Part shown: in pieces, positions 2,305-27,660 of the stretch
Numbering within the stretch: the first letter of the stretch is position 1
Layout of the letters: every line of letters begins with the position of its first letter
Assembly (NCBI GenBank): GCA_013820755.1
Contig: JACDHZ010000010.1
Span: forward strand, 1 to 32,792
Origin: Chthoniobacterales bacterium
Lineage (GTDB): Bacteria; Verrucomicrobiota; Verrucomicrobiia; Chthoniobacterales; UBA10450
Direction of reading: 5' to 3'
DNA: 32,792 nt
Notes under the pieces: model-generated
Told to the model about the DNA's origin: nothing
The model's database searches: none
Seen by the model: only the letters and a program-made list of their open reading frames with translations
Made by a program: the position numbers and the translations under genes

Positions 2305-2315
2305 TGGCGCCCTGG

Positions 2316-13895: not shown

Positions 13896-16414
13896 GCGGC
13901 GGCAACCTCCCGCTCGAAACGAACCAGCGGCAGCAGAATATGGAACGCCGTCCCTCTAGCCACCTGGCTTTCTACTTCGATCTGGCCGCCATGCTCCTGG
14001 ATGATGCCATGCACAACCGAAAGGCCGAGTCCGGTACCGTAGTCTTTCGTCGTGAAAAACGGATCGAACACGTGACCAATATCCTCCTCACGAATGCCGT
14101 CGCCGCTGTCGCGCACCGTGACGCGCAACACCTCGTCGGTATCGCCGTTCGTGCCGTTGATTGCAGTGACCCATTCCTCGGCCGAACGGATCTCCGTCGC
14201 TACGGTGAGCTCACCACCCCGCTTCATCGCATCCATCGCATTTAGGAAAAAGTTCAGGAATACCTGTTCAAGCTGGTCTGCATCCGCGCGGATGGTATCC
14301 ACATCGGCGTTCCACGAACGAGACAATTTGATGTCCTGCTGGTAAAGCCGATGCCCGACGAGCATCAGGGATTTCTCCAGAACGTCGTGCACGTGCATCG
14401 GCTTTAGGAGCGGCTTCGCAGGACGAGCAAACCGCAGCAGTTGGTTCACGAGCGAATCGATACGATCGATCTCGTGCCCGATGAGATTCGAGAAGGTCTC
14501 GCGGAAATCCGAGTCCTGGTACCGCTCCGGCAGCAGCTGTGCGAAGGTTTTAATAGAAACGAGCGGGTTTTTGATTTCATGCGCCATGCCAGCGGAAAGC
14601 GTGCCGAGGCTGGCGAGACGGTCGCTTCGCCGTATTTGCAATTCGAGGCGCTTCAACGCCGTGAGATCCGTCAGCACCATCAGTGCACCAAGCATTTCGC
14701 CGGCCTCGCCATGGAAGATCGAGCTGCTCGCACGCACGATAAGACTTCTCTCATCCGAGCGGAGAACAATTTCGCGGTGCTCTTCCAGTTTCCCTGACGC
14801 CAATGTATCGCGCAGCACCTGGCCCAAGGCCTCAGGTAGTTCAGCGACCGAGTGGTCGACGACGTCGTGCCACGGTAATTCCGTGATCTGCTCGGCTTCT
14901 TTGTTGAAAACGGTGATGCGGCCTTCTGTGTCGGCTGCGATCACGCCTGTCGTGAGGTTTTGCAGCAGCGTCTCATTGTAAATGCGCGCGTTCTGCACCT
15001 CGGTAAAGAGTTGCGCGTTCTCGATCGCGACCGCGAGCTGCCCGCATAATACTTGCAGAGCGCTCTGCTCAACCGTGCCGTAGATTCTCCCCGACCGGCG
15101 GCCGCCGAGCAGCATGATGCCGACAAGATGCTCGCGGGAGAAAATGGCCATCGCGACCCCAAGCTTCAGCTTGTGCATCTCGGACATCATTTCGTCGAGT
15201 TCGGGCGAGGCACGAACACGATGCAATTCCTCGAAGACGAGAGCCTCGGTTGGTTGAGTCTCGAGGTAGCGGACGACTGGATGGGTTCCGGGCAAATCGA
15301 GCGGCGTATCGTCCGTGTCGGTCAAGCGCTCGGGGTACTGCTGAACATACCCGCCCTTCTGCGACAGCAGGATCATAAGACGATCGGTATCGACCGCCTG
15401 CGCGATTGTGACGCCGAATTGATCGAGCAAATCCCGCAAGGTTGTGACGGAACGCAAGATGCCCGCGGCGTCTTTCATCGTCGCCCGAAAGTCGAGGTGA
15501 TGCGCACGGATGAAGAGACGCTCAGCAAGCCGGCGAGAAACCCCGCGCGCTGGAGCCATCGCGAACGCGATCACGACGGCGGCGAAGACATGCGCAATGC
15601 CGGAGCTGTTGTGCAGAGTCGGGCGCAGTGCCGTTGCGACCAGCCACCACACAAAAGCGTAAAGCGCCAGGAGGTAAGCGCCTAAAACCGCGTAGGACAA
15701 CAGCCGCCGGAGGAAAACGCCTACCTCCATCAGTTTACGAGTGGCGATGCCATATGCGACTACGACGCTAAAGAGAACGACGCGAAACGGCGCGAACCAG
15801 ATCAAGCGCGAAGGATCAACGTAGAAGCCAAGCACGTAAGCCAGGAGCAGAGACAGGCCGAGCGCAGCAAGTCCGCCGGTGAGGATAAATGCAAGTTCAG
15901 CGTGCTCGCTGCCGGTCGTCTCTCGCAGATCCCGCGATGCGGTAAAGATCAAGGAAATTATCGCAGCTATGAACAAGGCTGCGTAAATAAACACTGCAGG
16001 GCCATAGACCGGGAGAGGGGCGGATCCAGACTCCACTGGCAATCTCGCCTCTTTCAGGAACCAGCGCGTCTGACAAAGAATGACCGTGCCCCCTGTGAGA
16101 ACTAACCAGCTGCGGGAGTGCCGGAGTAATGCGTTCCAACTGATGTCGCGCAACCGCACCGACAGGCGCAACATGTTAAGGACTGCCAGATAGAGTGCCC
16201 CGGCTGCAGATGCTTCCCTGATGCCGATTTCCGCCATTGCCGCGTTTCTTGCCGTAAACGCGCAAAAGAGACTGCCAAGCCACGCCGCAATGGCGACCGA
16301 GAGCAGGAGAAAGCACTGGTTTACGCGCCGCCTCGGATTGGACTGAAAAACGGCAAAACCAAGCGCGACCTGTAAAGCCAGCGCAGTCAGCGTCGGGATG
16401 GAAGCGCTATTCAT
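13892..16414 (-). CDS. Membrane sensor histidine kinase (7TM-type N-terminus, GAF, PAS, HisKA, HATPase)
   Basis: 840 residues. The first 300 or so hold eight or nine hydrophobic segments, matching the 7TM-type input region of PrsK-like kinases. A GAF domain spans about 320-475 (MAIFSREHLVGIMLLGGRR). A PAS domain follows at about 485-590 (TTGVIAADTEGRITVFNKEAEQ in part), then HisKA with H612 in GMAHEIKNPL. The HATPase has NFFLNAMDAM, DSGDGI and GTGLGLSVVHG. Both ends overlap neighbours by four bases: its ATG lies in the stop of the ketosynthase-like gene and its TGA in the start of the soluble kinase. The three therefore form one coupled operon. PrsK kinases belong to exosortase/PEP-CTERM systems, but no exosortase gene is visible here, so that link is weak. 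The signal sensed is unknown. Confidence 0.9.
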   Translation of the reverse strand: MNSASIPTLTALALQVALGFAVFQSNPRRRVNQCFLLLSVAIAAWLGSLFCAFTARNAAMAEIGIREASAAGALYLAVLNMLRLSVRLRDISWNALLRHSRSWLVLTGGTVILCQTRWFLKEARLPVESGSAPLPVYGPAVFIYAALFIAAIISLIFTASRDLRETTGSEHAELAFILTGGLAALGLSLLLAYVLGFYVDPSRLIWFAPFRVVLFSVVVAYGIATRKLMEVGVFLRRLLSYAVLGAYLLALYAFVWWLVATALRPTLHNSSGIAHVFAAVVIAFAMAPARGVSRRLAERLFIRAHHLDFRATMKDAAGILRSVTTLRDLLDQFGVTIAQAVDTDRLMILLSQKGGYVQQYPERLTDTDDTPLDLPGTHPVVRYLETQPTEALVFEELHRVRASPELDEMMSEMHKLKLGVAMAIFSREHLVGIMLLGGRRSGRIYGTVEQSALQVLCGQLAVAIENAQLFTEVQNARIYNETLLQNLTTGVIAADTEGRITVFNKEAEQITELPWHDVVDHSVAELPEALGQVLRDTLASGKLEEHREIVLRSDERSLIVRASSSIFHGEAGEMLGALMVLTDLTALKRLELQIRRSDRLASLGTLSAGMAHEIKNPLVSIKTFAQLLPERYQDSDFRETFSNLIGHEIDRIDSLVNQLLRFARPAKPLLKPMHVHDVLEKSLMLVGHRLYQQDIKLSRSWNADVDTIRADADQLEQVFLNFFLNAMDAMKRGGELTVATEIRSAEEWVTAINGTNGDTDEVLRVTVRDSGDGIREEDIGHVFDPFFTTKDYGTGLGLSVVHGIIQEHGGQIEVESQVARGTAFHILLPLVRFEREVAAA

Positions 16415-17655
16415 TCAGGTCGAACCCGCTCGACCACAAGCGTGCTGGCACTCCCCCCTAAGCCACGCACGTTGATTAGCGCGCAGTCGACGACGCCGCG
16501 CCGCGCGTGGTTGGGAACAATGTCGAGGTCACATGCCGGATCAGCCGTCTCATAGTTTGCCGTCGGAGAAATCAAGTTGTCGCGCATCGTAAGGGCGCAG
16601 GCGATCAATTGAAAAGGGCCGCCCGCCGCCAACGGATTCCCCGTCACACCTTTGATAGAACTTACAGGGATCGACCACGCATGCTTCCCAAACACACGTT
16701 TGATTATTTTTGTCTCCATGGCATCAAGGAACGGGTGGCCGGGGCCGTAAGCCGAAATGTAATCCACGTGTCCAGGACAACGGCTGGCGTTCGCGAGCGC
16801 GAGTTGCATAGAATGCTCCAGCCCTGAAGCCGGTTGTGCTGGATCGAAATCCCGCTGGCTTGCATACCCGCTAATCTCCAAATACACGCGTGCACCCCGC
16901 GCTTCGGCGCGTTCCAGATTCTCGATGACGAAGACACCAGCACCTTCTGAGATCACGCCAGAGTCTCTCGTTAGGTCGAACGGCCGGCTTGCCTTTTCTG
17001 GCTCGGCGTTGCGTAGGGAGCTTAGGCCAGTCGCGGTAAAGCTCGCCATAGCTAGAGGCGTAATTGGCGCATCAGCTCCGCCGGCGATTGCAATCTCCGC
17101 TTCGCCCGACCGAATCATTTCCGCGGCAATCGCAATCGCGTCTAGCCCGGACGGACACGCCGAGGAGATCGTCGCCGCGTTCGCGCATGAGCCAAGTTTA
17201 TCAGCGATCAAATTGGCAGCCGCTTGCGGCTTCGACGCACCAAGCGCCGTTGGCGACACTCGATCGGGGCTTCGCTCCGTCACGTCGTGGAACACGCGCT
17301 CGATGACATCCAATGCACTCGTGCTGACGCCGATCACAACTGGCGTCGGACTTGGGAGCTCAAGATTTTCTAGATTGAGGTCCGCGTCTTTCAGAGCCAT
17401 CATCGTGGCTGCGTACGCGAGTTGCGTATGGCGCGCCATGCGGCGGGGCTTCATTTCTGGATCAATGTAGTCGACTGGATCGAATCCTTTCACCTCTCCG
17501 GCGATCCGACTCCTGAATGCGCTTGCGTCAAAAAGCGTAATAGGTCCAACACCGCTGCGTCCTTGACATAGGGACTCCCAGAACGCCGTCAGCCCGGTTC
17601 CGTTGGGAGCAAGAACACCGATCCCCGTGACGACTACACGATTTCTTTTGATCAT
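16411..17655 (-). CDS. Beta-ketoacyl-ACP synthase II (FabF)-like protein lacking both catalytic His
   Basis: A 414-residue thiolase-fold protein aligning with FabF over its whole length (VVVTGIGVLAPNG at the start, GLGGSASTLVVERV at the end). The nucleophile is present: C167 in SSACPSG. However, the two His of the Cys-His-His triad are replaced. Where FabF has NAHGTST this has SAYGPGH (Y303), and where FabF has KSMTGH this has KGVTGN (K335 kept, N340 in place of His). The gatekeeper Phe is Leu399. Decarboxylative condensation should therefore be lost or much reduced, while acyl loading on Cys may remain. This differs from chain-length factors, which lose the Cys. It overlaps the 7TM kinase gene by four bases. 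No ACP, acyltransferase or ketoreductase is adjacent. Transacylase or acyl-sensing functions are inferences. Confidence 0.85.
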   Translation of the reverse strand: MIKRNRVVVTGIGVLAPNGTGLTAFWESLCQGRSGVGPITLFDASAFRSRIAGEVKGFDPVDYIDPEMKPRRMARHTQLAYAATMMALKDADLNLENLELPSPTPVVIGVSTSALDVIERVFHDVTERSPDRVSPTALGASKPQAAANLIADKLGSCANAATISSACPSGLDAIAIAAEMIRSGEAEIAIAGGADAPITPLAMASFTATGLSSLRNAEPEKASRPFDLTRDSGVISEGAGVFVIENLERAEARGARVYLEISGYASQRDFDPAQPASGLEHSMQLALANASRCPGHVDYISAYGPGHPFLDAMETKIIKRVFGKHAWSIPVSSIKGVTGNPLAAGGPFQLIACALTMRDNLISPTANYETADPACDLDIVPNHARRGVVDCALINVRGLGGSASTLVVERVRPE

Positions 17656-17678
17656 GATGAAGAGGCGAGCAGTTTCCG

Positions 17679-17707
17679 ATTCTAACGTCTACGTTAATTA
17701 GAGTCAT
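17679..17707 (-). promoter_or_regulatory. Candidate sigma-70 promoter of the ketosynthase-like/kinase operon
   Basis: On the minus strand, ATGACT (17707-17702) and TAGAAT (17684-17679) lie exactly 17 bases apart and match the -35 and -10 consensus at four and five of six positions. The start codon at 17655 is 23 bases beyond the -10 box, giving a short leader. It fits the operon's only sizeable upstream gap. Confidence 0.45.
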
Positions 17708-17734
17708 TCTGCTTTTATGCTGCTACGCCGACTC

Positions 17735-17763
17735 TTATTCACCAAATTTTCGACTTATTCACA
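17735..17763 (+). promoter_or_regulatory. Pair of DnaA-box-like 9-mers, 20 bases apart
   Basis: TTATTCACC (17735-17743) and TTATTCACA (17755-17763) are tandem repeats with a centre-to-centre distance of exactly 20 bases, about two helical turns. The second fits the E. coli DnaA-box consensus TTATNCACA fully and the first misses by one base. An AT-rich stretch lies between them. They lie midway between two divergent operons, so they may bind DnaA or another regulator. Confidence 0.4.
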
Positions 17764-17775
17764 AGATGCATCTTG
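17762..17775. promoter_or_regulatory. 14-bp perfect palindrome, candidate operator
   Basis: CAAGATGCATCTTG is a perfect 14-bp palindrome that starts within the second DnaA-box-like repeat. It lies 108 bases before the start of the receiver-kinase gene and 107 bases before the divergent ketosynthase-like gene, so a dimeric regulator bound here could control both operons. Confidence 0.4.
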
Positions 17776-17821
17776 CATGCCGCAGTTTTTCCCGTCAGCG
17801 TCGTTTCCGTCGCCGGCGTAG

Positions 17822-17827
17822 TATGAT
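17822..17827 (+). promoter_or_regulatory. Candidate -10 box for the receiver-kinase gene
   Basis: TATGAT matches the -10 consensus at five of six positions and lies 42 bases upstream of the ATG at 17870. No good -35 box is seen 16-18 bases upstream, so an activator or another sigma factor may be needed. A CGCCGGCG palindrome (17811-17818) precedes it. Confidence 0.3.
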
Positions 17828-17869
17828 GGTCCACGCGGCACGTGCTTAGCTGTAAGTGGTTCGCCAGAT

Positions 17870-19024
17870 ATGACGATCTCTCCCGATCAACCGCAAATTC
17901 TTGTCATTGATGATGAAATTGGACCCCGCGAGAGCTTGCGGATGCTCCTGAAACCTAATTATCAGGTCCACACCGCCGATTGCGTTGAGACCGGGATTCG
18001 TTTGCTCCGCGAGAAGAAGCCTGACGCTGTCATTAGTGACATCCGAATGCCCGGCGCGAGTGGCATCGAAGGCTTGCGGCGTATCCGCCAGATCGATCCG
18101 CATGTAGCGGTGATCATGCTCACGGGCTTCGGCGCGCTGGAGACAGCGCAGGAAGCATTGCGCCTCGGCGCGAATGATTACATCAACAAGCCATTCGATG
18201 CGCACGAAATGCGCGATGTGATCAGCCGTAATGTCGAACGGACCAGAGTGCAACGAACCGGCGAGCATGCCGCCAGCGACATCAAAGAACTCAACAACCG
18301 GCTGCTGAAGGAACTTGCGCAAAAAGAGCGGCTTGCCTCGTTAGGTCAGGCGTCGGCTGAATTTGTTCACGATCTCAGTAACCCGCTCACGATCGTCTGG
18401 GGTTACGTGCAGTTACTCGCGAAAAAGCTGGAGAAGCAGGAGAATGGCGAGTCGACGCCGAACGGCACGAACTCCGCGAAAGAGCTGAACATCATCGAGC
18501 AGAATGTCCGCCTGTGCCGTGAACTGCTCACGATGTGGCAGAACTACGGCAGCGGAGAAGCATCACCGCACAAGGTGATCTCAGTTTCCGGAATTGTGCG
18601 CGAACTCATCAACGGCCTCGGCTCCATCGCAAGGCAGAACGGCGTCCAGTTTTCGAACGATATTTCGGGTGATAGTTGCAGTTTGCTTGGCGATTCAGTT
18701 CAGATCACGCGTGCGATCCAGAACGTGATCGTCAATGCGATTCAGGCCGCGGGAGAAACGAAGGGCGTGGTGAGTGTTAGTTGCGCTCGTAAAGAATCCT
18801 GCGTGGATGTGGGGGTGCAGGACAGTGGGCCGGGAATGACCTCCGGGCAGCTCCAGCGGATATTCGACCCTTATTTCACTACCAAGCAAAATAGAAGCGG
18901 CACGGGGTTGGGACTGTATATCACGAAGAAAGTTGTCGACGACCACAAAGGCTCGATCAAAGTCGACAGCACTCCAGGGACTGGAACGACGTTCACCATC
19001 CGCCTGCCGCTGCTGAACAACTAA
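17870..19024 (+). CDS. Receiver-histidine kinase protein (REC-HisKA-HATPase)
   Basis: 384 residues with the receiver first. Residues 8-125 are a complete CheY-like domain: D14/D15 in LVIDDE, phospho-acceptor D57 in VISDIRMPG, T85 in MLTGFG and K107 in INKPFD. HisKA follows, with H167 in EFVHDLSNPLTIVWGYVQLL. A HATPase domain closes the protein (NVIVNAIQAAG, DSGPGM, GTGLGLYITKKV). There is no sensor or membrane domain, so it is an intermediate in a phosphorelay, activated through its own receiver by another kinase. It is divergent from the ketosynthase/kinase operon over 214 bases and stands 100 bases upstream of the LanB-like gene on the same strand. A weak terminator-like hairpin follows it, so read-through into that operon is uncertain. 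Confidence 0.93.
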   Translation: MTISPDQPQILVIDDEIGPRESLRMLLKPNYQVHTADCVETGIRLLREKKPDAVISDIRMPGASGIEGLRRIRQIDPHVAVIMLTGFGALETAQEALRLGANDYINKPFDAHEMRDVISRNVERTRVQRTGEHAASDIKELNNRLLKELAQKERLASLGQASAEFVHDLSNPLTIVWGYVQLLAKKLEKQENGESTPNGTNSAKELNIIEQNVRLCRELLTMWQNYGSGEASPHKVISVSGIVRELINGLGSIARQNGVQFSNDISGDSCSLLGDSVQITRAIQNVIVNAIQAAGETKGVVSVSCARKESCVDVGVQDSGPGMTSGQLQRIFDPYFTTKQNRSGTGLGLYITKKVVDDHKGSIKVDSTPGTGTTFTIRLPLLNN

Positions 19025-19124: not shown

Positions 19125-21557
19125 GTGTCCGGACCATATCAAGTCGCGCCGATTTTCCTGATTCGGATGGCCGGTGTGGCGTTCGAGCCGCTCGATCGAC
19201 TTGCTACGCCCCACACTGTTCTGCTCGCGCGTGAGTTGATCCAGGGGAAGCGTCTCCGAGCAGGCGCAAGGGAGGACGCAGAAAAGTTTTTCCATTCGCG
19301 CGAGCGCCTGCTCTCAGTTGCGGCCTACCAGGCCCTACGCACAGCCGTTCGGCTCGAAAAGCCGCCGGCAGCAGTCGAAGGCGATTTGCCGAGAGTGTTC
19401 ACGAACTACGCGACGGCTTCTCATCGTGTCGCAGAACTCGAAGCGGAACTCGACGGCGCACTCGCACTCGAAGTCGCGGCTACGCGCGCTTCCCTTATCG
19501 AGAGCAGCGCTCTGCTGCAGCGCTATCTCGTCTTCGGCGCTGATAGCGTGCGTCGACTCCTGACAAAGCAACTAGAGGAATACCCTGCTGATCTCTCGAC
19601 AATGCGCCCACGCAATAATCCTGCGCGAAAAACCGAGCAGACGTTGTTGCTCTTCCTGCAGCGGGTCGCGGCGAAGAACGACACCTTCAGTGAATTCGGA
19701 CCCGGAGGTTGGGGGCGCAGTGACGCGCAGACTTCGGCAATTCTGATGGATCCTGAGGATGCGGTCGCTCGGCGGGAAGTTTTTCTCGAGCGGTGGACGG
19801 CGCATTCCACTGCTGCCGCGATAAACGCAGACGAGGAAGTGTTCGGCGAACTAATGCCGCATCTGGATCCGAATGGCTCGCTCAACGGAACAACGTTCAT
19901 TTCCAAAAACACCGGAGAGGTGACTGCACTTAGTCTGCACGAATTGGAACTCGCAAAACGCTGCGATGGGAAGACGCCGGTTCACGCGCTGACGGACGAG
20001 GTGTCGACTTTGCGGAAACTGGTAGCTGATGGGGTTCTGCGCTGCGCGATCGAAGTGCCGGCACTTGAGCCAAACGCTTTCGACAGACTGCGGGAAGATA
20101 TCGCATCGTGGCGAGGTGGCACCGCGCGAGATAAATGGCTGCCGGTTGCGGACGAAATTGCGGAGCTTCCGCGCCGTTTCGACACCACCACCGACAGCAA
20201 CGAACGACAACAGCTTTTATCGCAGGCATACACATCTCTCCGAAGTGCTGGTGCCGCAGAAAGAACAGGGCACCGGTTTCTGTACGCGGCTGTGAACCCG
20301 ATTGGCGAAGAATGCTTCCGTGAGTGCAACTTCGCGATCAGCGAGAGGCTGATCGGCGAAGTTCCCGCTGAAGCCGCGCTGTGGATCGATTTCTGGCGCG
20401 ATACGTATGCCTTCATTGCCAGCCGGGTAGCCGCTGGACTGAGGCAGATCATGGAACAAGCGGCGCCCGGCGCGACGTCGGTGCCGCTCCCCGCGTTTCT
20501 GCATATGTGCGAAACGGCGCGGCTGCCGCTTACCGGGCCGGGTTTGATTGGACTTGCCGTACTGGCATTTCAGGAAGTGAAAGCAGCGTTTCGCGAACAG
20601 TTGACGCCGCACCTTGCGCTAGACGAGTACGAACTCACGGCCGCGGATTGCCACGTCATCCGCAACAAATTTCAATACGCGAAGTTCGACGAATATACGT
20701 TTCCGTCCGCCGATCTTCAGATCGCCGCCACTTCCACGGACGCGGTACAGCGCGGCGAGTACCAGTGGATCATCGGCGAACTGCATCCGCCTGCCGCGCT
20801 GCTCCATCATGGATTTTACTGGAGCTGTCCTGACAAAGCCGCGCTGAACCGTGCCTTCGCCGCGACCGTCTTCGGCAAAGCCACGGCGCATTTCGGCTTC
20901 TTCGCTGCGGATTTCGCGTCGCACACGACGATCCGTGTTTTCGACGCGATGCCCGAACTGACGAACTTCGTAGCGCCGCAGCGCGGGCATCCCAGCTGGC
21001 GAACCACCCGACCAGCCGACGCAGAAGTGTATGTGGACCCGGAATCCGGCGACGTATGCATTCGCGCGATCAAGTCGCACGAGTTCCTCGGTTCGTTCGC
21101 GCGGGCATGGCTCATCCCTCTTGGCTTTCATCCGTTCCAGTTCGGCGTCTCACCACACACGCCTCGGTTGCGTTGCGGAAAGGTGATCGTGCAACGTCGC
21201 TCATGGGCGGTGACACTGGAGGAGCTCGCACCAGGCGACTTTAACGGCCTTTCGCGTCACCTCGTTCTGACTGTTGAACAACTGCGAGCCGCTCGTGGGC
21301 TGCCGCGGTATGTATACATTCGCCCGACTGAAACGGCGCTCCGTCGCAGCGGCGCGGAAGGCCGCGACAAAGACACAAAGCCGATCTTCATCGACCTCGA
21401 GAGCTACCTCTTTCTCGAGATATTCCACCGCTGGCTCGCGAAAGCGGGGGAGCTCGAAGTGACTGAGATGCTACCCGATCCGGACCATCTCTGCTGGCGC
21501 GAAGCGACGGGGCGACGCACTTTCGAGCTGCGCACATTGATCGTACCGCGCGCATGA
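19125..21557 (+). CDS. LanB-like lantibiotic dehydratase family protein, glutamylation domain only
   Basis: 810 residues of the lantibiotic dehydratase N-terminal family. Full class I LanB enzymes glutamylate Ser/Thr of a precursor using glutamyl-tRNA and eliminate the glutamate with a separate C-terminal SpaB_C domain. Family marks here are the opening FLIRMAGVAFEPLDRL (11-26), LLLFLQRVAAKNDTFSEFGP (174-193), RGHPSW near 660, PRLRCGKVIVQRR (from 680) and KPIFIDLESYLFLE (about 752-765). The chain ends about 45 residues later, so the elimination domain is missing, as in split LanBs and in peptide aminoacyl-tRNA ligases (PEARLs). The start is GTG at 19125, five codons before the conserved region. 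The stop overlaps parA by four bases. No precursor, LanC, protease or transporter gene is nearby. The substrate is unknown. Confidence 0.85.
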   Translation: MSGPYQVAPIFLIRMAGVAFEPLDRLATPHTVLLARELIQGKRLRAGAREDAEKFFHSRERLLSVAAYQALRTAVRLEKPPAAVEGDLPRVFTNYATASHRVAELEAELDGALALEVAATRASLIESSALLQRYLVFGADSVRRLLTKQLEEYPADLSTMRPRNNPARKTEQTLLLFLQRVAAKNDTFSEFGPGGWGRSDAQTSAILMDPEDAVARREVFLERWTAHSTAAAINADEEVFGELMPHLDPNGSLNGTTFISKNTGEVTALSLHELELAKRCDGKTPVHALTDEVSTLRKLVADGVLRCAIEVPALEPNAFDRLREDIASWRGGTARDKWLPVADEIAELPRRFDTTTDSNERQQLLSQAYTSLRSAGAAERTGHRFLYAAVNPIGEECFRECNFAISERLIGEVPAEAALWIDFWRDTYAFIASRVAAGLRQIMEQAAPGATSVPLPAFLHMCETARLPLTGPGLIGLAVLAFQEVKAAFREQLTPHLALDEYELTAADCHVIRNKFQYAKFDEYTFPSADLQIAATSTDAVQRGEYQWIIGELHPPAALLHHGFYWSCPDKAALNRAFAATVFGKATAHFGFFAADFASHTTIRVFDAMPELTNFVAPQRGHPSWRTTRPADAEVYVDPESGDVCIRAIKSHEFLGSFARAWLIPLGFHPFQFGVSPHTPRLRCGKVIVQRRSWAVTLEELAPGDFNGLSRHLVLTVEQLRAARGLPRYVYIRPTETALRRSGAEGRDKDTKPIFIDLESYLFLEIFHRWLAKAGELEVTEMLPDPDHLCWREATGRRTFELRTLIVPRA

Positions 21558-22333
21558 AAATCATCGCACTCGCAAATCAAAAAGGTGGCGTTGGTAAGAC
21601 GACGACAGCCGTCAACCTCGGCTGCGCGCTGGCGCAAAGAGGACATCGGATCCTCCTAATCGACCTCGATCCGCAGGCCAACGCCACAAGCTGTTTCGGT
21701 ATGCAGGATCTGGAAGGTGAAAGCTTATACGAACCGCTGCTTCGAGAAGCACCGATCGCGGACAAGGTGCTGCCGACTCGGCTCGACAAGATGTTCATCA
21801 TTCCGGCTGACCTTGATCTTGCCGGCGCCGAAATCGAGATAGCGCGGGGTCCTGACCATCTCACGCGGCTTTCTGAAACTCTCGAGCCTTTCCGCGCGGA
21901 TAATGCTTTCGATTACATCTTCCTCGATTGTCCACCTTCCCTCGGGATCCTGATGACCAACGCTCTCGCTGCTGCCGACGAGCTGATAACCCCGATTCAG
22001 TGCGAATTTTTCGCGCTCGAGGGCTTGGCGAAGATTGTGCGCGTTATCGAGCAGGTGCGAAAATCCGGTGCAAACGATCGCGTCGAGATCGCTGGAATTG
22101 TGATGACGATGTTCGACGGGCGCACGAACCTGAGCGGCCAGGTGGTGGCGGAAGTGCGGGCGCACTTTTCAGACAGGGTTTATGATACCGTGATCCCGCG
22201 AACGGTTCGCCTGAGCGAAGCCCCGAGTTTCGGCAAATCGATTTTCGAGTACGATCCGAACGGTCCGGGCGCCCGTGCCTACAGGGCGTTAGCCGATGAG
22301 TTCATCCGTCGGCACGCGAGCGAGACAACGTGA
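21554..22333 (+). CDS. parA: ParA/Soj-type ATPase
   Basis: 259-residue P-loop ATPase of the ParA/MinD superfamily, the DNA-bound ATPases that segregate chromosomes or plasmids or position protein cargo. The deviant Walker A KGGVGKTT occupies residues 10-17, and the A' strand LIDLDPQANAT gives D37 and D39. Walker B is FDYIFLDCPPSLG, followed by TPIQCEFFALEGL, standard for Soj. It lacks the N-terminal DNA-binding extension of plasmid ParA. The ATG lies in the stop of the LanB-like gene and its own stop overlaps the acetyltransferase start, so it is an internal member of this operon. No ParB gene follows and I saw no parS-like site, so it may be a positioning ATPase with another partner. That is an inference. 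Confidence 0.92.
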   Translation: MKIIALANQKGGVGKTTTAVNLGCALAQRGHRILLIDLDPQANATSCFGMQDLEGESLYEPLLREAPIADKVLPTRLDKMFIIPADLDLAGAEIEIARGPDHLTRLSETLEPFRADNAFDYIFLDCPPSLGILMTNALAAADELITPIQCEFFALEGLAKIVRVIEQVRKSGANDRVEIAGIVMTMFDGRTNLSGQVVAEVRAHFSDRVYDTVIPRTVRLSEAPSFGKSIFEYDPNGPGARAYRALADEFIRRHASETT

Positions 22334-22860
22334 TCCTTGAAACTGATCGATTGCTGCTGCGCGAATATGTGCAGGCTGATGCGGAGGCGTTTTTCCGGCT
22401 GAATTCGGATCCGGAGGTATTGCGTTTCACTGCGGATTCTCCGTTGCGGAGCACGGAACACGCGCGCCAAATTTTATCCAGCTACCCGATCGCCGATTAT
22501 CGTAGGTATGGATTCGGTCGGTGGGCGTGCATCGATAAACGGACTCGCGCCCATTTAGGATTCGCCGGCCTTAAGTACCTGGAAGAATTACAAGAAGTGG
22601 AGATTGGGTTCCGGCTCGTGCGCGCGTATTGGGGGTTCGGGTTGGCAACCGAAGCTGCAAAGGCTGCCGTCGCGTACGGATTCGAACACCTCTCGTTGAA
22701 AAGCATCATCGGCTTGGTGATACCGGACAACATTGCTTCAGTCAGAGTGCTGCAAAAAATCGGATTGAAATTCAGCAATCAAGTCTGCTGCCGCGGGTTG
22801 GAGCTCGAACGGTATACCATTAGCCGGCAGCGGTTCACAAAGCGTAGCTCCGACCTATGA
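22330..22860 (+). CDS. GNAT N-acetyltransferase, RimJ/RimL type
   Basis: 176 residues of the RimJ/RimL group (Acetyltransf_3), which acetylate N-termini of proteins such as ribosomal proteins or small-molecule amines with acetyl-CoA. The start MILETDRLLLREYVQADAEA is diagnostic. YGFGRWACIDKRT, HLGFAGLKYLEE, EIGFRLVRAYWGFGLATEAAKA (in parts) and NIASVRVLQKIGLKF supply the acetyl-CoA loop and the conserved Asn/Ser-x-x-Val-Leu-x-K-x-Gly element. The GTG start at 22330 overlaps the parA stop (GTGA), and the stop overlaps the carbonic anhydrase start (ATGA). Within a RiPP-like operon a tailoring acetylation of the LanB product is conceivable, but a general role is equally possible. Confidence 0.9.
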   Translation: MILETDRLLLREYVQADAEAFFRLNSDPEVLRFTADSPLRSTEHARQILSSYPIADYRRYGFGRWACIDKRTRAHLGFAGLKYLEELQEVEIGFRLVRAYWGFGLATEAAKAAVAYGFEHLSLKSIIGLVIPDNIASVRVLQKIGLKFSNQVCCRGLELERYTISRQRFTKRSSDL

Positions 22861-23531
22861 AATCCCTGAAACATCTTTTCGATAACAACAAGGCGTGGGC
22901 GGACCGGCTTCGCGAGCAGGATCCGGATTTATTTCTTAATCTCTCCCAGCAGCAGTCACCGAATCACCTTTGGATAGGCTGCTCGGACAGCCGCGTGCCC
23001 GCGAACCAGATTGTGGGTCTGCTGCCTGGAGAACTCTTCGTGCACAGGAACGTGGCTAATCTTGTGGTGCATACCGATCTCAACTGTTTGTCGGTGATGC
23101 AATTCGCAGTGGATATACTGAAGGTCGGGCACGTGATCGTTTGCGGTCACTACGGCTGCAGCGGCGTGCGAGCCGCCCTTCGGCGCGACAGGCTGGGGCT
23201 GAGTGATAACTGGCTGCGCCATGTCCAAGACGTTCGCGAAAAACACGAGAAGCCTCTTGCGACTCTGCGTGGCGAATCAGAGGCATCAGATCGCCTGGCC
23301 GAGTTAAACGTCATCGAGCAAGTAGCAAATGTCTGCCAGACGACAATCGTCGGCGACGCGTGGGAACGGGGACAGGAGCTGGTAGTGCATGGCTGGATCT
23401 ACGGCTTACAGGATGGTTTGCTCCGAGACCTGGATATCACCGTCACAGGCGCAGACGATGCGGTTGCCATTTATCAGGAGGCGGTTACGGCCTTGTTCGC
23501 GAGCGGTCCGGACGTAACATTTCGCCTCTAG
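22857..23531 (+). CDS. can: Beta-carbonic anhydrase (Can-like)
   Basis: Interconverts CO2 and bicarbonate. 224 residues, close to E. coli Can (220). The zinc ligands are C42, H98 and C101, with the Asp/Arg dyad D44 and R46: IGCSDSRVPANQ, then VIVCGHYGCSGVRAAL. These positions coincide with E. coli Can. FVHRNVANLV and VVHGWIYGLQDG are also standard. The HRNVANLV region and spacing fit the type II, bicarbonate-regulated group. The ATG overlaps the acetyltransferase stop by four bases, making it the last gene of the coupled set; dop begins 25 bases later. A metabolic link to the LanB-like enzyme is not obvious. It could be an ordinary housekeeping gene fused to the operon by genome compaction. 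Confidence 0.96.
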   Translation: MKSLKHLFDNNKAWADRLREQDPDLFLNLSQQQSPNHLWIGCSDSRVPANQIVGLLPGELFVHRNVANLVVHTDLNCLSVMQFAVDILKVGHVIVCGHYGCSGVRAALRRDRLGLSDNWLRHVQDVREKHEKPLATLRGESEASDRLAELNVIEQVANVCQTTIVGDAWERGQELVVHGWIYGLQDGLLRDLDITVTGADDAVAIYQEAVTALFASGPDVTFRL

Positions 23532-23556
23532 TCAGCAACGGGCTATCTTCGCTCGG

Positions 23557-25083
23557 ATGGAACGGGTGTTCGGGATCGAGACGGAGTACGGGATTACGAT
23601 CGACGGCGCGGAGTCCATCGACGTCGTTGCGGAGTCGATCGAGCTGGTGCGCAGCTACATGGGCCACGGCGCGCACATGAAATGGGATTACGAACTCGAA
23701 GATCCGCATCAGGACGCGCGTGGATTTCGCGCGAGCGAGCTGCTGCAGGACACGGATGAGTCGGCTTACTTCGAGATCGATAAGAGCCGGCCGCTGCGGT
23801 TTGAGGAGATCAAAACCGACCTCGTGCTGGCGAACGGCGCCCGATTTTATAACGATCACGCGCACCCCGAATATTCCACGCCTGAGTGCACAACCCTCCG
23901 GCAGATTATCGCTCACGATCGCGCAGGGGAGCGCATCGTCGCGGAATGCGCGCGCCGCCGAAACCTGGAACTCCCCGACGGGCAGGAAGTGCGGTTGTAC
24001 AAGAACAACACCGATTTCCTGGGGCACAGCTACGGCTGCCACGATAACTACCTGATGCGAAGAGACGTGTCGTGGGATTGCATTGTCGGCGGCATGCTGC
24101 CGTTCCTCGTTACGCGACAGATTTTCGCGGGAGCAGGGAAGCTCGGGACCGAAGCGGAAAGCGCAGCGGGTAAGCCTGGCATCTATCAGATTTCGCAACG
24201 CGCCGATTTCTTCAGCGTGCTCGTGAGCATCGATACGATGAACCGCAGGCCGCTCGTGAACACACGTGACGAGCCCCACGCCACTTCGGCAAAGTATCGG
24301 CGATTCCACGTGATCGTCGGCGACGCAAACATGAGCGAGTGGACGACCGCATTAAAGGTCGGGACCACTGCGCTCGTGCTGGAATTAATCGAGCGCGGCA
24401 ACGTGCCGGACCTCGAGCTCGCGGAGCCAGTGCAGGCGATCAAAACAGTTAGTCGTGACCAGGATTACAGTTGGATTTTCGAGCTGCGCGACGGTCGAAA
24501 GATTTCCGCAGTCGACGTCCAGCGGCTTTATCTCCAGGCGGCGCAGGACATGGAATATCCTCCAGAAGGAGATACGCGATGGCTTCTGAACGAATGGGAA
24601 ACTGTCCTGAACGACCTGGAGCGTGACGTCGAGTCAACGCGCGATCGGGTCGACTGGGTGGCAAAAAAGTTTTTGCTGGCCGCCATGCAGGAGGAGGAGA
24701 AGCTCGCATGGAGTGATCCCTGGCTGCAGGCGATTGATCTCGAATATCATAACGTCGACCGCGAAGCGGGATTGTTCCATGCGCTGGAGCGTCAGGGTGC
24801 GATGCGCCAGGTTGTTAGTGCTGACGACATCGCCGCGGCAATTTTCTGCCCACCCGAAACGACGCGCGCGTATTTCCGGGGGCGCTCGGTCGCGAAGTAT
24901 GCGCCTGCAGTCGAGTCAGTGCAATGGGACGAGGTCGTGTTCGCTGACAACGGGAGGACGCAACGCGTTTCTCTGCCGGAAGTGTCCGCCGATGCGCGGT
25001 TGGAGCGACTGAACGCGCTATGTCGCGAGGAACCCGCGATCGGTGAGTTCCTTACAGCGCTGGAGGAGATCGACAGCGCCTGA
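23557..25083 (+). CDS. dop: Depupylase/deamidase of the Pup pathway (Dop, PafA2 family)
   Basis: Member of the glutamine-synthetase-fold Dop/PafA family, which deamidates the C-terminal Gln of Pup and removes Pup from proteins. 508 residues, matching Dop. The N-terminal FGIETEYG supplies metal-binding E8 and E10. Then KWDYELEDP, a 30-residue polar insert at the Dop-loop position, and NDHAHPEYSTPEC with D100 as the likely nucleophile. ISQRADF, NTRDEPHA, YRRFHVIVGDANMSE and TRAYFRGR follow. WDYE and DHAHPEYS favour Dop over PafA. Neighbours are carbonic anhydrase (25 bases upstream) and convergent glgP. No Pup/UBact, pafA, ARC/Mpa or proteasome gene is in the window. Dop outside Actinobacteria is known with UBact-type systems, including Verrucomicrobia, so a distant locus is expected. 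Confidence 0.93.
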   Translation: MERVFGIETEYGITIDGAESIDVVAESIELVRSYMGHGAHMKWDYELEDPHQDARGFRASELLQDTDESAYFEIDKSRPLRFEEIKTDLVLANGARFYNDHAHPEYSTPECTTLRQIIAHDRAGERIVAECARRRNLELPDGQEVRLYKNNTDFLGHSYGCHDNYLMRRDVSWDCIVGGMLPFLVTRQIFAGAGKLGTEAESAAGKPGIYQISQRADFFSVLVSIDTMNRRPLVNTRDEPHATSAKYRRFHVIVGDANMSEWTTALKVGTTALVLELIERGNVPDLELAEPVQAIKTVSRDQDYSWIFELRDGRKISAVDVQRLYLQAAQDMEYPPEGDTRWLLNEWETVLNDLERDVESTRDRVDWVAKKFLLAAMQEEEKLAWSDPWLQAIDLEYHNVDREAGLFHALERQGAMRQVVSADDIAAAIFCPPETTRAYFRGRSVAKYAPAVESVQWDEVVFADNGRTQRVSLPEVSADARLERLNALCREEPAIGEFLTALEEIDSA

Positions 25084-25104: not shown

Positions 25105-27660
25105 CTAGGACCAGGTGATCAGTCGCAACTCGTGTGGCTGGATCAGGTGGGGATGAGTCGGTATCACACGGACGCTGAATCCGTACGTGCCGCTCTCCAT
25201 CGCGGGTACGGCGCCGCGATAAACGTATTCACCGCGTGACATGCCAGCGTCAGCGCGGTTCAAGATCGTGACGCTCGGATTTCGAACGCCGTCAATTTCG
25301 GCTTCGCCGTGATATGCTTCCACGCGGACATGCTCAGGAGCGATACTGCCGAGATGAACTCGAGCCGAGACCTCCAACGATTCGCCCACGAGGATGTTCT
25401 GCGGGTCATTGTTGGCGACCTGCACGTCCAAGATGCGCACCTGCGGCCAATCATGTCGCATGCGGGATTTCCATTGGCTCAGTTCCGTGGCGGCCCGGCA
25501 GTTATCGCGCGCGAGTTCCTGGTATCCTCGCGCGGCCGGCGTATAGAGCCGCTCGGAATATTCTTTCACCATCCGGTGAGTATTGAAGACCGGCGTGACG
25601 CTGCGGATCGACTCGCGCATTAGCTGCAGCCAGGCGAGTGGCAGTTTGCCGTCCGGCTTTGCGTAGTAGAGCGGGATGATCTGGTTCTCGAGCAGTTGAT
25701 AAAGACTGCGCGCATCGACGTCACTTTGGAAGTCGACCGTGCCATCATCAATCTCAGCACCAATAGCCCAGCCGTTTTTGCCGTTGTAACTTTCGCACCA
25801 CCAGCCGTCGAGCACGCTGAGGTTTAAGCCGCCATTCGGCGGCAATTTCATGCCACTGGTGCCGCTTGCCTCCAGTGGACGCAGTGGATTGTTGAGCCAG
25901 AGATCCACACCCTGAACAAGCCGCCGTGCGATGTACGTATCGTAATCTTCCACGAAGACGATCCGGTTCTCGAAACCCGCTTCGCGGCTGAATCTATAGA
26001 CCTGTTGGATCAGGGCTTTGCCGCCTTCGTCGCGTGGATGGGATTTGCCGGCGAAGACGAACTGCACCGGACGGGTTGTATCGTTCAGCAGCCGTCCAAG
26101 CCGTTCCTTGTCGCTGAACAGCAGCGCCCCACGTTTGTAAGTCGCAAACCGGCGTGCAAACCCAATCGTCAGAATCTCGGGATCGAGGACGTGGATTACA
26201 TCCCGAATGGCCTCTGGCGATTCGCCCAAGCGCCGCCGCCGCGCGCGGACGCGGTCGCGGACGAAACCAACCAGCCGCAGCTTCAGTTTTTGGTGCGCCT
26301 CCCATAGCTGTGCGTCCGGAATGTCGATGACGCCACGCCAGAATTCGACATCCGTGAGGCGCTCCTCCCAATCGCCAAGATACTTGGTGTAGAGAGCGGA
26401 AAATTCCGGCGCCATCCACGTTTTCGTATGGACACCATTCGTGATGCTGGTGATTGGGACTTCATGTTGCGGCACGCCAGCCCACACCTCTTTCCAGAGC
26501 GATTGACTGACGCTCCCATGGAGTTTGCTCACCCCGTTTGCGTGCCGGCTCAGGCGCAGCGCGAGGATCGTCATACTGAACGGATCGGTCGCATTGAGAC
26601 GCGATTGGCCGAAAGAGAACAACTCTTCGAACGGGATGCGGAGTTTTGTCGCGAAGTCGCCGAAGTAGCGGCGCATCATCTCCAGCGGAAAGGCGTCGTT
26701 ACCCGCCGGCACGGGTGTATGTGTAGTGAAAACATTGGCTGCCGACACGAGCTGCAGCGCGGCATAGAAGTCGAGATTCTTCTCCGTCACGAAAAGCCGG
26801 ATACGCTCGAGCGCGAGGAACGCCGAGTGGCCTTCGTTCATATGGAACACTTCGGCTTCGATCCCGATCGCGCCGAGCGCCTTCACGCCGCCAATCCCGA
26901 GCACAATTTCCTGCCGTATCCGCATTTCCAGATCTCCGCCGTAAAGCTCAGCCGTGATCAGACGGTCTTCGGGTGAGTTTTCAGGCGTGTCGGTGTCGAG
27001 CAGGTACAGCGTCACGCGGCCGACGCGCAGCTCCCACACTTTCGCGAACACCTCCCGCTCGAGAATGCGCACAGAAATCAGCAGCCGATCATTTCCAACG
27101 CGCGCCTCCCGAATTGGGAGATGGTGAAAATTTTGGTTCAGGCTAATCGCCTCCTGCACGCCATCTTTGTCAATCTGCTGCTTGAAGTAGCCGTGCCGGT
27201 AGAGCAGCCCAACCGCGACAAAGTTGAGGTCGAGATCGCTCGCTGACTTACAATGGTCTCCGGAAAGAATGCCAAGGCCGCCGGAGTAATTCGGGACTGA
27301 TTCGTGGAAGCCAAATTCGGCGGAAAAATACGCGACCGGTTTCTTCATCGCAGCCCCTTTGCCGGTTTTTCCGTAAGTGTCCTGTCGCGCGAGGTACGCG
27401 CGAAAGGCGCCGTGAACCTGCTTCAACTCACGCAGAAAATCGTCGTCCTCTGCGACCTCTAGAAGGCGGGCCTGACGTGATAACTGCAGCATCCGGAGCG
27501 GATTGTGATTCGTGCGGTTCCAAAGCTCGGGGTCGAGATGGCGAAACAGCCGCCGCGCCGAAGGCTCCCACGTCCACCACAGGTTAAAGACAATCTCTCT
27601 CAGCGCTTCGAGAGCCGGAGGAAGGGTGGGGATGACGTTGTAGGTTTGATACGTCGGCAT
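25105..27660 (-). CDS. glgP: Alpha-glucan (glycogen) phosphorylase
   Basis: Releases glucose-1-phosphate from alpha-1,4-glucans. The 851-residue product is of the shorter bacterial/archaeal-like alpha-glucan phosphorylase type, with the DUF3417 N-terminal domain (PALEALREIVFNLWWTWEP). The core follows: YFSAEFGFHESVPNYSGGLG, HMNEGHSAF, TTHTPVPAGND and FARRFATYKR. The PLP-lysine is K605 in EASGTSGMKLPPNGGLNLS, then DGWW. The last 110 or so residues (from about 740) form a beta-rich tail after the catalytic domain. Together with glgC it gives synthesis and breakdown of glycogen, but the two genes lie 18 kb apart and in different transcripts. It stands convergent to dop and 84 bases downstream of the rhomboid gene. 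Confidence 0.96.
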   Translation of the reverse strand: MPTYQTYNVIPTLPPALEALREIVFNLWWTWEPSARRLFRHLDPELWNRTNHNPLRMLQLSRQARLLEVAEDDDFLRELKQVHGAFRAYLARQDTYGKTGKGAAMKKPVAYFSAEFGFHESVPNYSGGLGILSGDHCKSASDLDLNFVAVGLLYRHGYFKQQIDKDGVQEAISLNQNFHHLPIREARVGNDRLLISVRILEREVFAKVWELRVGRVTLYLLDTDTPENSPEDRLITAELYGGDLEMRIRQEIVLGIGGVKALGAIGIEAEVFHMNEGHSAFLALERIRLFVTEKNLDFYAALQLVSAANVFTTHTPVPAGNDAFPLEMMRRYFGDFATKLRIPFEELFSFGQSRLNATDPFSMTILALRLSRHANGVSKLHGSVSQSLWKEVWAGVPQHEVPITSITNGVHTKTWMAPEFSALYTKYLGDWEERLTDVEFWRGVIDIPDAQLWEAHQKLKLRLVGFVRDRVRARRRRLGESPEAIRDVIHVLDPEILTIGFARRFATYKRGALLFSDKERLGRLLNDTTRPVQFVFAGKSHPRDEGGKALIQQVYRFSREAGFENRIVFVEDYDTYIARRLVQGVDLWLNNPLRPLEASGTSGMKLPPNGGLNLSVLDGWWCESYNGKNGWAIGAEIDDGTVDFQSDVDARSLYQLLENQIIPLYYAKPDGKLPLAWLQLMRESIRSVTPVFNTHRMVKEYSERLYTPAARGYQELARDNCRAATELSQWKSRMRHDWPQVRILDVQVANNDPQNILVGESLEVSARVHLGSIAPEHVRVEAYHGEAEIDGVRNPSVTILNRADAGMSRGEYVYRGAVPAMESGTYGFSVRVIPTHPHLIQPHELRLITWS

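Follow-up and report, generated by a model that had tools for sequence, protein, structure and literature searches.

In one family of soil Verrucomicrobia, the LanB-like gene of the window (the whole stretch of 32,792 nucleotides that was analysed) is part of a signalling module that is conserved, and it disappears when the module is lost. We propose, with a probability of roughly 70%, that the module is made of two divergent operons, one encoding a KS-like protein and the histidine kinases HK1 and HK2, the other RR-HK, the LanB-like protein and ParA, which share a promoter and provide a kinase-controlled ligase, the remaining genes being bystanders (Table 1). In the literature consulted (PMC11962472, PMC11212132), PEARL-type enzymes belong to natural-product gene clusters, and no description of the kinase/KS-like/LanB-like combination was recognised in the portion of the open-access literature covered. 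If our proposal is correct, a conserved PEARL-type copy wired to three histidine kinases would suggest that tRNA-dependent amide formation is also used for regulation or housekeeping, and the module would represent a small, testable gene set.

Table 1 Features of the window and their relation to the module
Feature	Position	Strand	Remarks
HK2, histidine kinase (GAF-PAS-HisKA-HATPase), 666 aa	11895–13895	−	module member; same position in relatives
HK1, histidine kinase with PAS and weak GAF, 840 aa	13892–16414	−	module member; N-terminus hydrophobic, judged by eye
KS-like (FabF-related) protein, C167-Y303-N340 replacing the Cys-His-His triad	16411–17655	−	module member
Divergent intergenic region	17656–17869		common to both operons
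RR-HK, receiver domain and histidine kinase, 384 aa	17870–19024	+	module member
LanB-like protein of 810 aa, a stand-alone glutamylation domain (PEARL-like)	19125–21557	+	module member; GTG start
ParA, 259 aa	21554–22333	+	in the LanB-like operon, yet independent; probably housekeeping chromosome ParA
GNAT acetyltransferase, 176 aa	22330–22860	+	bystander
Carbonic anhydrase (Pro_CA), 224 aa	22857–23531	+	bystander
Dop (Pup deamidase/depupylase family), 508 aa	23557–25083	+	bystander
Carbohydrate (glycogen-type) phosphorylase with DUF3417	25105–27660	−	next to Dop at 11 of the 19 Dop loci from relatives

Conservation and joint loss of the module

In relatives, RR-HK precedes the LanB-like gene at 46 of 49 loci, and in a set of 20 loci the KS-like gene is a neighbour of the LanB-like gene at 18. 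Across 73 genomes of the family, with up to eight candidates scored per genome, KS-like and LanB-like genes occur together in 40, LanB-like alone in four, KS-like alone in one and neither in 28, a pattern of presence and absence that is clustered by genus. Both genes have been lost together at least twice, once in genus g4, where LpxD adjoins ParA, and once in a genome (G005) that keeps only the tails of HK2 and RR-HK; since the co-loss of adjacent genes may be a single deletion, it weighs less than that of scattered genes. At one locus (L048) the LanB-ParA pair is kept, and the KS-like and RR-HK genes do not lie alongside. The block was seen in one family only, except for one partial block in a sister family; one of the genome searches behind this distribution scored no more than two candidates per genome, and the absences in that search are therefore soft. 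In one sister-family genome, a PaaK-like ligase occupies the place of LanB. As for the rows compared, A1 omits L051 (cut); A2 omits L036, L039, L048, L049, L050 and L051 (absent, partial or split; L051 not given); A4 omits L036 and L048; and A3 comprises 10 of 20 rows.

The restriction to a single family, bar the partial block, is compatible with an operon of convenience, in which unrelated kinase, KS-like, LanB-like and ParA genes were fixed by drift. We regard this explanation as unlikely, given that the order is kept across genera, with LanB-like proteins 52–62% identical to that of the window and active-site-type residues invariant, and that a conserved promoter element is common to the two operons and losses are joint.

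The divergent intergenic region carries paired TTATTCAC boxes at positions 17735 and 17755, as well as a palindrome, CAAGATGCATCTTG, at 17762–17775, and among the loci searched the box pair is confined to the region between the KS-like and RR-HK genes. The sequence TTATTCACA at the paired boxes fits the DnaA-box consensus, and the minimum of the cumulative GC skew of the window, at 16001–18000, contains the box site. A replication origin at the boxes was rejected because this minimum is shallow (−0.11) and falls where the genes turn, because the box site shows no skew extreme on 280 kb and 220 kb of two relative contigs (G018:C11 and G035:C42, respectively), and because the region is lost in g4 and G005.

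The LanB-like and KS-like proteins

The LanB-like protein matches the glutamylation domain of TbtB over nearly its full length, in the C-terminal part by sequence, and its fold is that of the glutamylation domains of TbtB and NisB, as judged from a structure model of modest quality (pLDDT 64; rmsd 7.5 to TbtB). Residues R14, R180, D530, R691, E801 and R803 are present in 20 of 20 rows, and they would fit those described for TglB and BhaBCTrp (PMC11962472), an equivalence that rests on profile alignment and spacing. The Glu/Arg pair (E801 and R803) and the N-terminal Arg (R14) would correspond to residues of an ATP-grasp-like site. An RRE-like domain, at about residues 238–310, is found in 13 of the 20 rows and missing from seven; according to the tree, this region underwent three or more changes, the core being kept, and the same study describes the RRE as perhaps unimportant for PEARLs.

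The fold, together with the RRE-like region, might suggest a class I lanthipeptide dehydratase divided into two proteins, of which the LanB-like enzyme would be one and whose precursor is unlinked, a possibility that we find distinctly improbable. The elimination domain Lant_dehydr_C (PF14028) is absent in 57 of the 58 genomes searched, including that of the window (92% complete), and in the exception (G015) it is sited in a separate gene, encoding a full-length LanB; moreover, R803, the arginine of the PEARL Glu/Arg pair, is present here but aligns to a gap in that true LanB. A weak PF04738 match in another genome (G119) lies inside a 912-aa ORF, which by its look we take to be a helicase, and was dismissed as false. 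The LanB-like protein is most likely an aminoacyl-tRNA-dependent ligase. It might be a classical PEARL that extends its own scaffold peptide, the gene for which would lie at another place in the genome; the PEARL-type residues and the presence of the RRE-like region in 13 of 20 rows argue for this. We hold it to be possible, though rather doubtful, as visual inspection of the three gaps within the block revealed no conserved small ORF (of at least 25 aa), and the RRE-like region, although perhaps unimportant in PEARLs, varies around a core that is kept.

The KS-like protein is related to ketosynthase-type structures such as PDB 4ls5 (E 3.8e-87), while both catalytic histidines are gone and the cysteine is retained: the combination C167, Y303 and N340 (C-Y-N) is found in 15 of 15 rows, versus C-H-H in the PDB relatives shown. 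Two other KS matches, from outside the family (G111 and G212), have the ordinary C-H-H, and nothing in the stretch inspected matched the module kinases.

ParA and the genes downstream

Of the 49 LanB loci in relatives, 46 have ParA after LanB (35 of 38 once 11 exact duplicates are set aside); at one locus, L026, LanB has no ParA within the following 1.5 kb. At the 28 relative loci with both genes, the spacing between ParA and the last LanB codon that was matched is −1 in nine, 2–7 in ten and 37–187 bases in nine; among these loci, L042/L103 and L046/L104 are probably the same contigs, their lengths being equal. A ParA match is present in 51 of 58 genomes, as the sole copy in 48 of the 51, with one strong ParA in the genome of the window, and ParA persists in genomes that lost LanB. 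As the genomes mostly hold a single close ParA, which endures without LanB, the ParA at the end of the operon is most likely a housekeeping chromosome-segregation ATPase. ParB occurs in 52 of the 58 genomes, away from ParA (the two are not adjacent in the four ParB stretches inspected), and none was found in the incomplete genome of the window. Searching a defence library returned weak matches only, to ParA and receiver domains.

The first-pass annotation had joined the LanB-like gene, ParA, GNAT, carbonic anhydrase and Dop into a single, spatially positioned system for modifying peptides or proteins. Re-reading of the bases agrees with the arrangement that it described, with four ORFs coupled by 4-base start/stop overlaps (ATGA at 21554, GTGA at 22330, ATGA at 22857) and the ATG of dop beginning 25 bases past the carbonic anhydrase stop, all on the same strand. 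The five family matches are Lant_dehydr_N (1.2e-11), AAA_31/ParA (3.6e-56), GNAT (4.7e-32), Pro_CA (2.1e-51) and Pup_ligase (5.8e-166), the first of which upholds the LanB-type assignment, with aminoacyl-tRNA use being probable; likewise, no described RiPP cluster was recognised around the LanB-like gene, as had been stated. Overlaps of 4 bases also join the KS-like gene to HK1 (16411–16414) and HK1 to HK2 (13892–13895), and they are therefore nothing special here. As to the supposed operon joints, the one between the LanB-like gene and ParA is kept across one family, whereas the others do not recur in relatives.

Although the three overlaps and the 25-base gap in one genome, together with the LanB-ParA joint kept within the family, speak for a single system, we consider it highly improbable and reject it because synteny in relatives fails. 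GNAT lies on the opposite strand at every one of the 28 loci of relatives in which it was observed (21 without exact duplicates), being there 29–44% identical to the GNAT of the window; ParA outlasts LanB. Neither carbonic anhydrase nor Dop appears at any of the 49 relative LanB loci, most of which extend only ~1.5 kb past LanB, and LanB, Dop and carbonic anhydrase lie on three separate contigs in all 15 genomes that place all three. Scattering in sister genomes, which the first-pass annotation had named as refuting its reading, was observed for three of the five genes. We also discarded the idea that carbonic anhydrase and Dop are linked: in relatives, carbonic anhydrase is found at 0 of 19 Dop loci and Dop at 0 of 19 carbonic anhydrase loci, the two never coming together across the 38 loci checked, and nothing on such a link was found in the portion of the literature searched. 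For the most part, the apparent operon of five genes is a local accident. The window is probably the meeting point of two unrelated segments, with the module on the left and an ordinary Dop-phosphorylase neighbourhood on the right, between which GNAT and carbonic anhydrase would have been inserted through local rearrangement.

Dop scores 490.5 bits against the TIGR03688 equivalog (cut-off 492.3), its own PafA score being lower (388.1), and a second gene of the Pup_ligase family is present in the genome of the window. Around Dop and PafA, a rough scan for small ORFs with G-E or G-Q as their last two residues yielded no convincing Pup-like gene. The real companions of the LanB-like gene lie upstream; these, a KS-like gene and genes for three histidine kinases, had been overlooked in the first-pass annotation.

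Proposed mechanism and known systems

In the two-operon module that we propose, the three sensor kinases would control how one metabolite is made or used. The LanB-like enzyme would activate a carboxylate with ATP and join to it an amino acid from aminoacyl-tRNA, in the fashion of PEARLs, and the KS-like protein, presumably incapable of condensation, may hold or transfer an acyl group, with ParA, the probable chromosome-segregation ATPase, carried at the operon end. We infer the use of ATP and tRNA, the acyl transfer, the regulation by kinases and the nature of the product. More tentatively, and with odds that we place well below even, the module could be a fixed chromosomal, kinase-controlled unit in which a scaffold-free PEARL-type ligase and a KS-like acyltransferase yield an aminoacylated acyl signal or cofactor, the PaaK-like ligase replacing the former in the sister family.

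Comparison with ParABS chromosome segregation highlights a similar distribution, with mostly one close ParA per genome and ParB in most of them, but here ParA ends the RR-HK-LanB operon instead of lying beside ParB in the stretches inspected. The KS-like protein shares fold family and sequence with FabF/KAS II, from which it differs in that Y303 and N340 take the place of the histidines, departing from the Cys-His-His triad. With the LanB glutamylation enzymes TbtB and GodF, the LanB-like protein has in common the fold over nearly its whole length; unlike them, it has ATP-type residues, no elimination partner was found in its own genome and no thiopeptide genes were recognised beside it. In contrast to the PEARLs (TglB, BhaBCTrp and AmmB, as well as SnaE, which acts on a non-ribosomal product), it has a degenerate KS and three histidine kinases as neighbours and not a recognised biosynthetic cluster, no scaffold peptide is seen in the gaps of the block and the RRE-like region is not constant. 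It resembles them in being a stand-alone LanB glutamylation domain with no elimination domain, and in its C-terminal Glu/Arg pair, its N-terminal Arg and its Arg/aromatic pair 40 residues apart.

The right-hand genes of the five-gene row

In the MAG carrying the window (3.02 Mb, 316 contigs, 92% complete), ORF calling and reading of the bases reproduced the ORFs, start/stop overlaps and 25-base gap of the row encoding a LanB-like enzyme, ParA, GNAT, carbonic anhydrase and Dop, and the domain search upheld all five family names. The first-pass annotation had inferred one system from these genes, which the relatives do not support: LanB, full-length Dop and the close carbonic anhydrase lie on three different contigs in 15/15 genomes where all were placed (G001-G003, G006-G008, G011, G015, G016, G023, G024, G029, G030, G035, G036), and GNAT, present in 28 relative LanB loci (21 distinct; 29-44% identity), is on the opposite strand every time. 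A phosphorylase gene adjoins Dop in 11 of the 19 relative Dop loci (11/15 in family f1, 0/4 in other families); with flanks of at most 1.5 kb, carbonic anhydrase is absent from all 19, as is Dop from all 19 carbonic anhydrase loci. From the contig split and these loci, we take the right-hand side of the window to be Dop's usual surroundings and the joint to be local. The joint may be an assembly join, but the start/stop overlaps at the joints argue otherwise. We conclude that the right-hand genes are ordinary neighbours and that the left-hand block is a real module, of which no description was found in the open-access literature.

A second Pup_ligase-family gene, PafA-like, was seen in G000 (L002, L096); no small gene in its vicinity was recognised as Pup-like. 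In the left part of the window, adjacent 562-aa and 568-aa genes fall in one protein cluster and are probably paralogues.

Coordinates of features in the window and in relatives
Feature	Location	Strand
Adjacent 562-aa and 568-aa genes	window 616-4022	-
Paired TTATTCAC boxes and palindrome, between two divergent operons	window 17735-17775	
PafA-like gene	G000:C163:12924-14231	
HK2 and RR-HK remnants	G005, L128:4778-5042	
Full-length LanB with the 72-codon ORF after it	G015:C33, L144:1318-4746	
PaaK-like ligase	G099, L179:7482-8753	

Distribution and loss of the divergent module

The module comprises a FabF-related KS-like gene with two histidine kinase genes (HK1, HK2), divergent from a receiver-histidine kinase gene (RR-HK), LanB-like and ParA. 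The LanB-like protein occurs in 44 of 117 relative genomes, every one in family f1 (13 genera). Of 387 genomes sampled evenly across the phylum, with no more than two candidates scored in each, three had it, all again f1; named records matched are Verrucomicrobia, Spartobacteria and Chthoniobacterales. We read 50 LanB loci (L004-L053), the window among them; the 49 relatives include 11 exact duplicates, leaving 38 distinct. ParA follows LanB on the same strand in 46/49 (35/38 distinct); sequence stops <100 bases from LanB in L028 and L051, and L026 runs 1.5 kb past LanB without ParA. RR-HK lies upstream in 46/49, the exceptions being L022 and L033, with little or no upstream sequence, and L048. 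The KS-like gene adjoins the block in 18 of the 20 loci of the LanB-like match set (L036 is too short to judge; in L048, RR-HK and KS are both missing at that place), closely trailed in longer stretches by two histidine kinase genes. Carbonic anhydrase and Dop occur in none of the 49 relative loci, 34 of which extend at most about 2 kb past LanB. L026 (G024:C206) carries, beside the full gene, a second C-terminal LanB-like fragment, and ParA is on a different contig.

Among 73 genomes (G000-G072, taken as f1; the KS-search set of 213 is assumed to include them), 40 carry both KS-like and LanB-like genes, four LanB alone, one (G031) KS alone and 28 neither (KS-like threshold E<=1e-95, at most eight candidates scored per genome), counts which, the genomes being related, are no test of independence. 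The LanB-only genomes are 66% (G002), 66% (G004), 85% (G014) and 74% (G055) complete. Two losses of the module are visible. In genus g4, LanB is found in 0/16 listed genomes, and in the three genomes read (G009, with two stretches, G021 and G027) LpxD and ParA are 0.9-1.1 kb apart, ParA lying between LpxD and GNAT plus what we take to be UDG-like genes (L124, L126, L127). In G005, LanB, KS and HK1 are gone, and only short pieces of HK2 (37 residues) and RR-HK (57 residues) persist between an aldolase gene and ParA, remnants that require more than one clean deletion, or misassembly.

A close ParA (E<=1e-30) occurs in 51/58 genomes, as a single copy in 48 of the 51, and is also carried by families without LanB (best copy 55-67% identity), where ten stretches have neither LanB nor an f1-type RR-HK beside it; in L133, a kinase gene, 35-36% alike, lies about 4 kb from ParA. 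ParB is at other sites in 52/58 genomes, with no ParA in four ParB stretches, and was not found in the window's own, incomplete genome. The ParA of the LanB operon is read as probably the chromosome ParA.

Promoter region and KS-like protein

The 214-base divergent region holds a pair of TTATTCAC boxes at a distance of 20 bases, together with the palindrome CAAGATGCATCTTG. The exact pair, defined as TTATTCAC, 8-16 bases, TTATTCACAA, occurs once each in 34/178 fetched loci, by position always directly upstream of RR-HK. No further copy turned up on either strand of the 1.30 Mb scanned, a total in which overlapping loci are counted repeatedly. Of 19 aligned regions, 12 have the exact pair (absent from L040-L043, L046, L047, L053) and 15 the CAAG-6-CTTG form. 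TTATTCACA also fits a DnaA box. Boxes and palindrome are a possible site for DnaA or another regulator, common to both operons; skew along two long contigs gives no mark of a replication origin there.

The KS-like protein aligns with FabF along its length and keeps Cys167, but has Tyr303 and Asn340 in the 15/15 rows given, where FabF has His. By the chemistry of FabF, the KS-like protein should be incapable of condensation; we infer that it may hold or transfer acyl groups. Three KS matches fall outside f1, one of them in G099 (family f4), where HK2, HK1 and KS (C-W-N) diverge from RR-HK and a PaaK-like ligase replaces LanB, 101 bases past RR-HK by the start codon that we chose. This ligase matches a phenylacetate-CoA ligase in the PDB (3.6e-13) and nothing in Pfam, and by eye the promoter pair was not seen in the divergent gap. 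In this single-genome case, carboxylate activation would be common to both downstream enzymes, LanB-like and PaaK-like.

The LanB-like enzyme and known ligases

Pfam Lant_dehydr_N matches the C-terminal part of the window protein and both ends in relatives; Lant_dehydr_C was not found in 57 of the 58 genomes searched. The predicted model (pLDDT 64) has TbtB as its best match, spanning residues 17-803 (Z 10.6, rmsd 7.5, 606 aligned), followed by GodF, MibB, NisB and MadB. Its residues 238-310 match RRE domains; this region is absent from 7/20 aligned rows, which takes no fewer than three changes on the tree. G015 has a true full-length LanB (1066 aa), and the 72-codon ORF after it has a tail, ...GGMANTGPTCGGETCATRS, that resembles a class I lanthipeptide precursor.

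We regard the class of the LanB-like enzyme as fairly secure. For peptide aminoacyl-tRNA ligases (PEARLs), PMC11962472 names Glu801, Arg803 and Arg10 of TglB and Glu813, Arg815, Arg34, Arg715 and Phe755 of BhaBCTrp; the LanB-like counterparts, assigned by spacing and profile alignment to TbtB, are E801, R803, R14 and R691, in 20/20 rows. Residue 731, likewise a counterpart, is Tyr in 19 rows and Phe in one (n=20), and D530 is, at a guess, the counterpart of Asp558. The G015 full-length LanB has a Glu aligned with E801, but a gap opposite R803. According to PMC11962472, ATP is required by PEARLs, but not by LanB dehydratases. SnaE is a known PEARL-type enzyme without a carrier peptide, as PMC11212132 describes.
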